64,000 nt of DNA, taken from assembly GCF_018873765.1 (NCBI RefSeq), contig NC_057924.1:868001-932000 (forward strand), read 5' to 3'. A model generated the notes under the pieces. The model saw nothing but the letters and a program-made list of their open reading frames with translations. It made no database searches and had not been told where the DNA came from. The position numbers and the translations under genes are program-made. Source of the DNA: Telopea speciosissima (Eukaryota > Streptophyta > Magnoliopsida > Proteales > Proteaceae). Positions 8,901 to 10,867 of this stretch are shown here, in pieces (positions within the stretch are counted from its first letter, which is position 1; the number at the start of each line of letters is the position of its first letter).

Positions 8901-10867
8901 GTTCTCGTCTGCAGCATTTTCATCTCCTCTGATATTTAGTTCAATATCTGAATTATGTGATGAGTTAACAACCTGTGGTAGAACAGTTGTTTCCTGAGTT
9001 CTTTCTCCTACATGCCTTTGACTGATTAAAACATCGGCATCTCTGCTGGGTGAGTTACTTGTTTCTAACCTATTCATTGTTTCACAGAGTACAATTGCAT
9101 TCTCTTTACAGGGTACTCTTTCTTCATTGCTGACTTGGTGTGTAAGTTCTACAGTGGTTGGGGTTACATTGCTTTCACATCCAATGCCACATTGTGCTTG
9201 CATTTGTTCTTCCCCACTTCTGCATTGGCTCTTGTCAAATGTTTTTGCTGGAACATCTTTTCCTTTGGTTATGGAATTATGAATTGCATGACCATCTAAG
9301 GCTGTTTCTTCTTCTCTACAGGCAATAGATGGGTCTGCTTGCCTCTGACATCCAGATTGTCTTTCTGCCACATCAGTACCCAAAAATACAGATAGAGCAT
9401 TTTTTACAGAATCTAACTTTTTCTTTGCTCCCTGATATTCAGCAATTGCAAGTTGGTATGAGCAAAAGGGGCAATAGAAGTTCCCCATATTGTCAAAGCT
9501 AGCTTCACAGCCCAAGCAACTCTGATGAACAACTAATAGGCAGTTATTACCATTACAACTCAACAGCTGACCACTTCCATCACATTTTATACAAAGTTCT
9601 TCCCCTGGACAATCTTCCAAATCCAAAGAAACCTGACCACCTGTGTTTTGAGAATTCAAGAGACAATGCTCATTCGTAGAAGCAACAAACTTATCTCTTG
9701 AGTCAGGTCTATAACGATATCTATCAATGCGGATCAATGTTTCTGGTGCAATACCATAATTACCGTCATTTTCGGCTTCATCGTTCAAAATACCATGGTG
9801 GGGCCCACCTTTATTTGCTTCTTTAACACTATTCTTGCTTGTTTTGCACCTCTTTGTAGCTATACATCGATCAGGGCTGTCTGCACCTGCATGTGGATTA
9901 TCACCATCAGGCCTGTCTTCATTTCCTTCTTGAACACCATCCTTGCTCCTTTTACACCTTTTAGCAGTTACACATTGATCTAGAGAGTTTGCACCTGCAA
10001 ATGTATCATCTTTATGAGGCCTGTCTGCATATGTTTATTGAACACCATTCTTGTTGGTCTGACACCCATTAGCAGCTGTAAATTGGTCCGAAATTTTTGT
10101 ACCTGTACTAGGATAATCACCATCTCTATTCACATGAACTTCAGTTTGGTCATCTGCACGTTGTCTAGCCAATCCACTCGTCTCCATCAAGGATTCCACA
10201 GTTGGATGGCAATCCTTAGAAGTCTGAATGTGTAAACAAGCAATAGGGATTAAGTCAACACCGTGACCTATGAAGTAAAGACCATTTATAATCTCCGGGG
10301 TAAAACACAAGCAGCGGATTCACCTTCTCTGGTACACAACCGACCAAAGAATCTCTTTTTTGAAGAAATAACTGTTCATTGTTGTGATTTAACTGCTCTT
10401 GTGTTGACATTGTAGAATCAGGTTTTGTCACCTGTAGGTAGACAAATAAAACATATAAGATTGATGACAATCATCGATTTGTGCCCAAATATTTCAAATT
10501 TCTCAAAAAAGAAGCGGCTTTTTTGGTTTTCGAGAGGGGGGGAGGGTTGCTGTAGCTGGAGAAACAGCTTTCCCTATTAATTAATTGAAGGTAGCGCCAT
10601 GGAGTAAAAAGATGCTGAAGCGAGATGAAAAAACTAACTAAACAGAAATTTAAGTTATTAGGAAAAAAAAAATGAAGAAGAAACTGTAAAGTAGTAAATG
10701 AAGATTTATACAGAATTTCCAGTAGGAGATAAAAAGGAAAATAAGAGAAGATAAGGAAACGATCAGGAGAAAACCTCATTGAGAACAAGCGTGGACAATG
10801 AACTCAAAACCTTTAAATGAGGAATTTTGGAGATCACAGCCCTACTTCCACGGTTCTTCGTTTTCAT
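5927..10867 (-). CDS. PHD-finger and Myb/SANT (TRF-like) nuclear protein
   Basis: Six exons join in frame on the minus strand: 10775-10867 (ATG, MKTKNRGSRAVISKIP), 10324-10431, 10103-10223, 8845-10024, 8606-8678 and 5927-6091, about 579 residues. A PHD finger (CIKCDGSGQLLSC, CLLVVHQSC, NFYCPFCSYQLAIAEY) lies in the long exon. A C-terminal Myb domain spans exons 5-6: KKRFWTAEEEEILK, then EGVQKFSGTVAKNLPWRKI and ADLKNKWRKI. This pairing is known from plant homeodomain-like/PHD proteins related to TRF-like Myb factors, so a chromatin or DNA-binding role is inferred. The region before the PHD finger holds three 108-bp (36-residue) tandem repeats, and the first has an in-frame TAA at 10035-10037. 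Removing a GT-AG intron at 10025-10102 (78 nt) skips it and keeps frame. If that intron is not used, the gene is broken or starts later. The 3' end is uncertain: a donor-like GAAG/GTACC lies just before the stop, so more exons are possible. Confidence 0.75.
7020..7062. repeat. 10-bp tandem repeat, about four copies
   Basis: The unit actaaaaagg repeats four times without change inside intron 5 of the PHD-Myb gene. It is a plain minisatellite with no other signal seen. Confidence 0.9.
7142..7280. mobile_element. MITE with 15-bp perfect inverted ends and 7-bp target duplication
   Basis: The element starts atagttatcaaggcg (7142-7156) and ends cgccttgataactat (7266-7280), exact inverted repeats. 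It is flanked by ttgagat at 7135-7141 and 7281-7287. The inside is GC-rich with repeated cgccttgg/ggcg words and an inner palindrome (gacgcctaggcgtc). At 139 bp it has no coding power. It lies in intron 5 (6092-8605) of the PHD-Myb gene. A 7-bp duplication does not settle the superfamily; hAT (8 bp) is closest. Confidence 0.85.
9790..10103 (-). repeat. 108-bp coding tandem repeat in the PHD-Myb gene
   Basis: Three copies follow on the minus strand: 10103-9996, 9995-9888 and 9887 to about 9795 (partial). Shared words are ggtgcagac/ggtgcaaac, a Cys codon pair around (K/R)RCK, aagaatggtgtt/aaggatggtgtt, and gacaggcct(g/c)at. The unit encodes a 36-residue repeat with D-Q-C and R-C-K motifs and a GDN/KDD turn. 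Copy 1 contains the stop codon and the proposed intron. Confidence 0.85.

Follow-up and report, generated by a model that had tools for sequence, protein, structure and literature searches.

The window, i.e., the whole 64,000-nucleotide stretch of Telopea speciosissima DNA analysed here, is part of contig C9 in a genome of 823 Mb and 1,287 contigs. On its minus strand, to which all coordinates of the gene refer, open frames, splice scores and a Myb domain outline a gene that appears to encode this domain together with a PHD-like finger. Exon A (10431-10324), recognized by its open frame and its acceptor and donor scores, is in phase 0 at both ends and terminates with ...LQKRDSLVGCVPEK; by eye, it resembles ...LHKRESLPRCALRQ of a paralogue at locus L013. 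It contains the first ATG within the window that is used by the gene models. Earlier coding exons are possible, and a search with paralogue peptides beyond 10431 yielded no convincing one. Intron 1 (10323-10224) has 100 nt, GT-AG borders with scored sites and 38% U. The long exon extends, by its open frame, from 10223 to 8896. Its first part, exon B up to the candidate donor discussed below (10223-10103), has an open frame continuous with that of exon A; its last part (9801-8896), likewise an open frame, follows a repeat array and contains the PHD-like C4HC3 finger at about 9593-9462. In the gene model, an intron (8895-8679) then leads to the first Myb exon (8678-8606, RKKRFWTAEEEEILK), which has an open frame and a Pfam match, and a large intron (8605-6092) to the last exon (6091-5927), which contributes the second half of the Myb domain and the stop TAA at 5929-5927. 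As donor ending the PHD-like exon, 8844 was dropped for 8895, the scores being −2.08 and 3.44, respectively.

In the conceptual protein, the Myb_DNA-binding match (E 2.2e-7) lies above the Pfam cut-off and the PHD_2 match (E 0.0023) below it. The label “PHD” therefore rests on the C4HC3 spacing, which was assigned by eye on the sequence, and on the 46-47% identity of the finger part to two paralogue matches, both on contig C9. In the paralogues L013 and L014, a single open frame of 455 codons covers the stretch equivalent to the long exon, with which they share little sequence except in the finger. These two loci (C9:46.67 Mb and C9:44.51 Mb) are about 2.2 Mb apart and 94% identical over about 5.5 kb; either a segmental duplication took place recently or the assembly holds the region twice. 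A dispersed repeat rich in AAGGCG lies in the large intron of the window gene (7280-7140) and has short matches in L012, L013 and L014, too. Further upstream, at 13590-13225 of the minus strand, an open frame with ...GNMKPWLEIGMPKYRSYW... is presumably the last exon of a galacturonosyltransferase-type gene. A scan for bacterial promoters and terminators produced nothing useful for a plant gene, and a literature search made other than by gene name gave no entry on the gene among the matches listed.

The initial annotation had described three in-frame 108-bp repeats in this gene, and three ungapped 108-nt copies are indeed found at 10125-10018 (copy 1), 10017-9910 (copy 2) and 9909-9802 (copy 3). 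Aligned in register without gaps, copy 2 is 71% and copy 1 67% identical to copy 3. The in-frame TAA that had been reported for copy 1 is at 10037-10035 and shares its frame both with exon B before it and with the long frame after it; copies 2 and 3 were correctly said to lack a stop and have GAA at the equivalent codon. Equally, the frame said to stay intact for hundreds of codons past the TAA is open for 458. The differences between copies 2 and 3 fall on codon positions 1, 2 and 3 in numbers of 15, 8 and 9. Lacking a third-position excess, the array itself is weakly constrained at the protein level.

Two relatives of the gene lie elsewhere in the genome. A partial copy on contig C5 (C5:2472999-2473618) matches 10369-9834 of the window, a stretch that begins inside exon A and ends inside copy 3, and continues with unrelated sequence past the breakpoint at 9834. 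It shares the TAA exactly, while differing from C9 at 34 of 388 aligned sites. Being common to C9 and a diverged copy, the TAA cannot be put down to an assembly error, nor is it entirely new. A second relative, C2:51388531-51389383, is a duplicate whose surroundings are conserved as well: around it, window stretches 14000-12736, 5267-4716 and 4241-4121 align in the same order. Everything upstream of about 10003, including copy 1, has been lost from it, and over 10003-9118 it shows five in-register stops and nine gaps, seven of them frame-breaking. This syntenic duplicate, to judge from these lesions, is decayed and dead.

Across the three loci, the codon at the TAA position is GAA in five of seven readable copies, and the remaining two, copy 1 of C9 and copy 1 of C5, have TAA; an eighth, copy 3 of C5, ends before this codon and was left out of the count. 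AGGT stands at the unit boundary, in the same register, in all eight readable copies, as counted by eye. In a FastTree phylogeny, copies in the same position at different loci cluster together: the copy-1 pair has a support of 0.992, the copy-3 trio one of 0.934 and the split holding the copy-2 trio one of 0.962. This implies that the array is older than the split of the loci.

The order in which the loci branched is not settled by the polarised sites: five shared-derived states unite C9 with C5, two C5 with C2 and one C9 with C2. A derivation of C5 from the C2 duplicate, with the TAA predating the duplication, was considered and dropped since these sites conflict. The TAA might also be younger than assumed, if gene conversion between C9 and C5 took place. 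Such conversion is possible in view of an identical run of 62 sites around the TAA (10060-9998), which contrasts with the divergence on either side, though only at p 0.069, and of a low-divergence stretch with two mismatches in 100 sites (p 0.054).

The C5 partial copy has some peculiarities of its own. Within L005:2059-2664, indels near the repeats partly cancel, e.g., −1 and +7. This stretch has just two in-frame stops, both in the equivalent of window segment 10102-10025. On the same locus the copy (L005:2000-2619) is followed at 2646-2900 by an unrelated open frame of 84 codons, which we take to resemble a plant SUVH-type protein; it has no Pfam match at E 0.01. The arrangement would fit a joint capture of gene pieces by a mobile element.

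What does a TAA in the middle of an otherwise open frame mean? One answer, already offered as an alternative in the initial annotation, is a disabled gene, with a protein truncated by the TAA and a locus decaying like the C2 duplicate. The uninterrupted reading does stop at the TAA, 91 codons past the first in-window ATG, and the C2 duplicate is dead. Nor can slow evolution of C9 be invoked against decay. Over the 169 sites common to C9, C5 and C2, counted without those past the C5 breakpoint at 9834, unique states number 3, 8 and 17, respectively. The difference between C9 and C5 (3 vs. 8 of 169) is not significant (p 0.23), and this argument was dropped. Against decay stand the TAA shared with a diverged C5 copy, although 458 codons downstream of it are open, and the intact Myb domain. 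In simulations of neutral evolution, the 458-codon frame survived with a frequency of 0.028-0.14 at t=0.02, 0-0.005 at t=0.05 and 0-0.0005 at t=0.08, the ranges reflecting different indel rates. A t of about 0.04 would correspond to half of the C9-C5 difference. Neutral survival would thus amount to 3-14% if the C9 branch measured only t=0.02. On balance, the disabled gene is weakened as an explanation, and we consider it unlikely.

Alternatively, a downstream promoter or start could bypass the TAA and yield an N-terminally short protein, in which no more than the C-terminal Myb domain would have to be preserved. The first Met past the TAA (in FDNMGNFYC), however, is inside the PHD-like finger and splits it, which means that the frame cannot simply restart. 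The resemblance of exon A to that of the paralogues, as judged by eye, moreover makes the N-terminal part look coding. A bypass of this kind is highly improbable.

Another way out is to splice the TAA away. The initial annotation had proposed to do so with an intron from a GT in acag/gtacaa, starting at 10102, to an AG in tatgcag/acagg, ending at 10025. Both sites are where they were said to be and enclose 78 nt. The mere presence of GT and AG, however, is worthless as evidence for an intron and was rejected as such: in-frame GT-AG pairs of 60-150 nt span all 929 of 929 control codon positions. Scores are more discriminating. Pairs of this length scoring at least as high as the 78-nt pair span 8 of the 929 control codons; none of these codons is spanned by a pair that equals a 108-nt pair from the same donor. 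The control positions come from three exons, two of which (L013 and L014) supply 712 of the 929, and, these loci being about 94% alike, they are not independent. All splice scores were obtained with a dicot matrix that was not trained on introns of this genome.

With this matrix, 94 in-frame GT-AG pairs of 60-300 nt were ranked. The first (score 8.49) is the 108-nt pair, a candidate intron at 10102-9995 reading CAG|GTACAA ... TTTGCAG|GTG, which has the exact length of one repeat unit and AG|GT at either end. Its donor has the best score among the 12 GTs of exon B before the TAA, although it is off consensus after +3 (GTACAA). Its acceptor, which is in frame and was missed by the initial annotation, has the best score among the 25 AGs from 10034 to about 9800. 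The 78-nt candidate 10102-10025, with the acceptor ATATGCAG|A, ranks fourth (score 5.68). In favour of the latter as the main intron are its GT-AG borders, its frame, its ATGCAG acceptor, its rank of 4 in 94 and, by eye, a branch-like CTAAT at 10072-10068. Yet its donor finds a better acceptor 30 nt further on (5.44 vs. 2.63), which results in the unit-length anatomy, and 78 nt is short for a plant intron. As the main intron it is therefore doubtful. Ranks 2 and 3 are taken by 10120-9995 (126 nt) and 10102-9887 (216 nt, two units). These, or another in-frame splice, would equally remove the TAA, but their scores of 7.43 and 5.89 stay below the 8.49 of 10102-9995, and we regard such solutions as very unlikely. 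Skipping of exon B, with the donor of exon A joined past the TAA, was discarded; the best in-frame acceptor from 10034 to about 9800 scores −4.98 there.

The candidate segment is exon-like in composition, with 24% U against 34-38% in the three other introns of the gene model. Its divergence does not betray an intron either. C9-C5 mismatches number 16/121 in exon B, 6/78 in the 78-nt segment, and 1/30 plus 11/161 downstream, i.e., there is no intron-specific acceleration. C9-derived changes affect 6 of 107 sites in copy 1 and 2 of 183 in copies 2 and 3 together (Fisher p 0.055, borderline). Two of the six in copy 1 precede the donor, and the excess is thus not intron-specific.

In our opinion, this is most likely an active gene whose pre-mRNA undergoes splicing from the AG|GT at 10103/10102 into the repeat array, whereby the TAA would be removed. 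We would put the probability at about 0.68. The figure covers any splicing from 10102 into the array; the 78-nt intron and part of the other in-frame splices are sub-cases of it, and the probabilities of the readings hence do not sum to one. That copy 1 had turned into an intron, as first surmised, remains the best-supported reading, considering the shared TAA, the kept frame, the finger split by the next Met and the good in-frame sites. The boundaries first proposed, 10102-10025, did not hold up as well: 10102-9995 is likelier by its rank (1 vs. 4 of 94) and unit length. The acceptor, to judge from the scores, is most likely the AG|GT of copy 2, and the intron would comprise one whole 108-nt unit. 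The acceptor at 10025, 30 nt before 9995, is a possible alternative; both introns take out the TAA in frame.

How could this state have arisen? We infer that an exon segment bearing AGGT was tandemly repeated first. Latent splicing between the AGGT sites may then have dropped copy 1 from some transcripts, and the change from GAA to TAA in copy 1 would have been tolerated afterwards. Once there, the TAA would have made the unspliced form a dead end, with a stop 91 codons past the first in-window ATG and likely nonsense-mediated decay. A more general version is conceivable, although we consider it rather unlikely: the array could be a splicing module, whose AG|GT boundaries of the same phase allow 0, 1 or 2 units to be dropped, and in which the TAA locks the removal of copy 1. 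If true, it would provide a plant case with latent splice sites demonstrably older than the stop that fixed the intron.

Recent intron gains with an identifiable source sequence are few, according to the introduction of PMC4974935. The present gene still shows the source next to its sister copies, together with GAA as the codon that was likely ancestral; a minimum age for the stop follows from the C5 partial copy. If spliced, the gene would support the view that new introns can arise by tandem duplication and a premature stop acquired afterwards.

The route as such is already known. Intron gain by tandem duplication of exon sequence bearing AGGT or a proto-splice site, the Rogers model, is reviewed in PMC3443670 and treated in PMC2891723 and PMC4974935. 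As described there, an intron of this kind and its flank are tandem duplicates of an exon segment, and so are the candidate intron and its flank here. In such introns, the AGGT of one copy serves as donor and that of the next as acceptor; here, all eight readable copies carry AGGT, for which this use is putative. Common to both are the tandem coding repeat, AG|GT at the unit boundary, a (candidate) intron of one unit and a stop inside it. A premature termination codon was found in 18 of 18 tandem-duplication intron sequences of the Drosophila set, according to PMC2891723. In contrast to a fresh duplication, however, the three copies here are old (67-71% alike), and the splicing is a candidate one. 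A further difference is the kind of gene, here a plant one that combines Myb and PHD-like parts. In the potato RdRp case of PMC4974935, the duplication crosses an existing intron-exon boundary, whereas the present array crosses none.

Exitrons share with our candidate the in-frame splice inside a coding exon and the exon-like composition. By the definition quoted from PMC4484396, however, the spliced segment of an exitron has no stop codon, and the TAA within the candidate segment excludes this class by definition.

A premature stop between latent splice sites is the intronization route of Catania and Lynch, discussed in PMC3443670 and PMC9612004. The latter describes the premature stop as the final step of intronization and mentions that Paramecium introns with a length that is a multiple of three are richer in stops (2022). 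The former, a review of 2012, cites in the passage concerned indirect evidence solely for the other route of intronization, the one that forges splice sites. The present gene resembles the Catania and Lynch scheme in that the length is a multiple of three, latent sites are present in every readable copy, and the stop is confined to the putatively removed copy, near the 5′ end of the known coding sequence. The latent sites are also older than the stop, AGGT being common to all eight copies and TAA restricted to copy 1 of C9 and C5. Unlike in that scheme, the latent sites derive from the repeat unit. With an anatomy equal to that of the published AGGT duplications, the gene would, if its splicing is borne out, be a further case of this known route.
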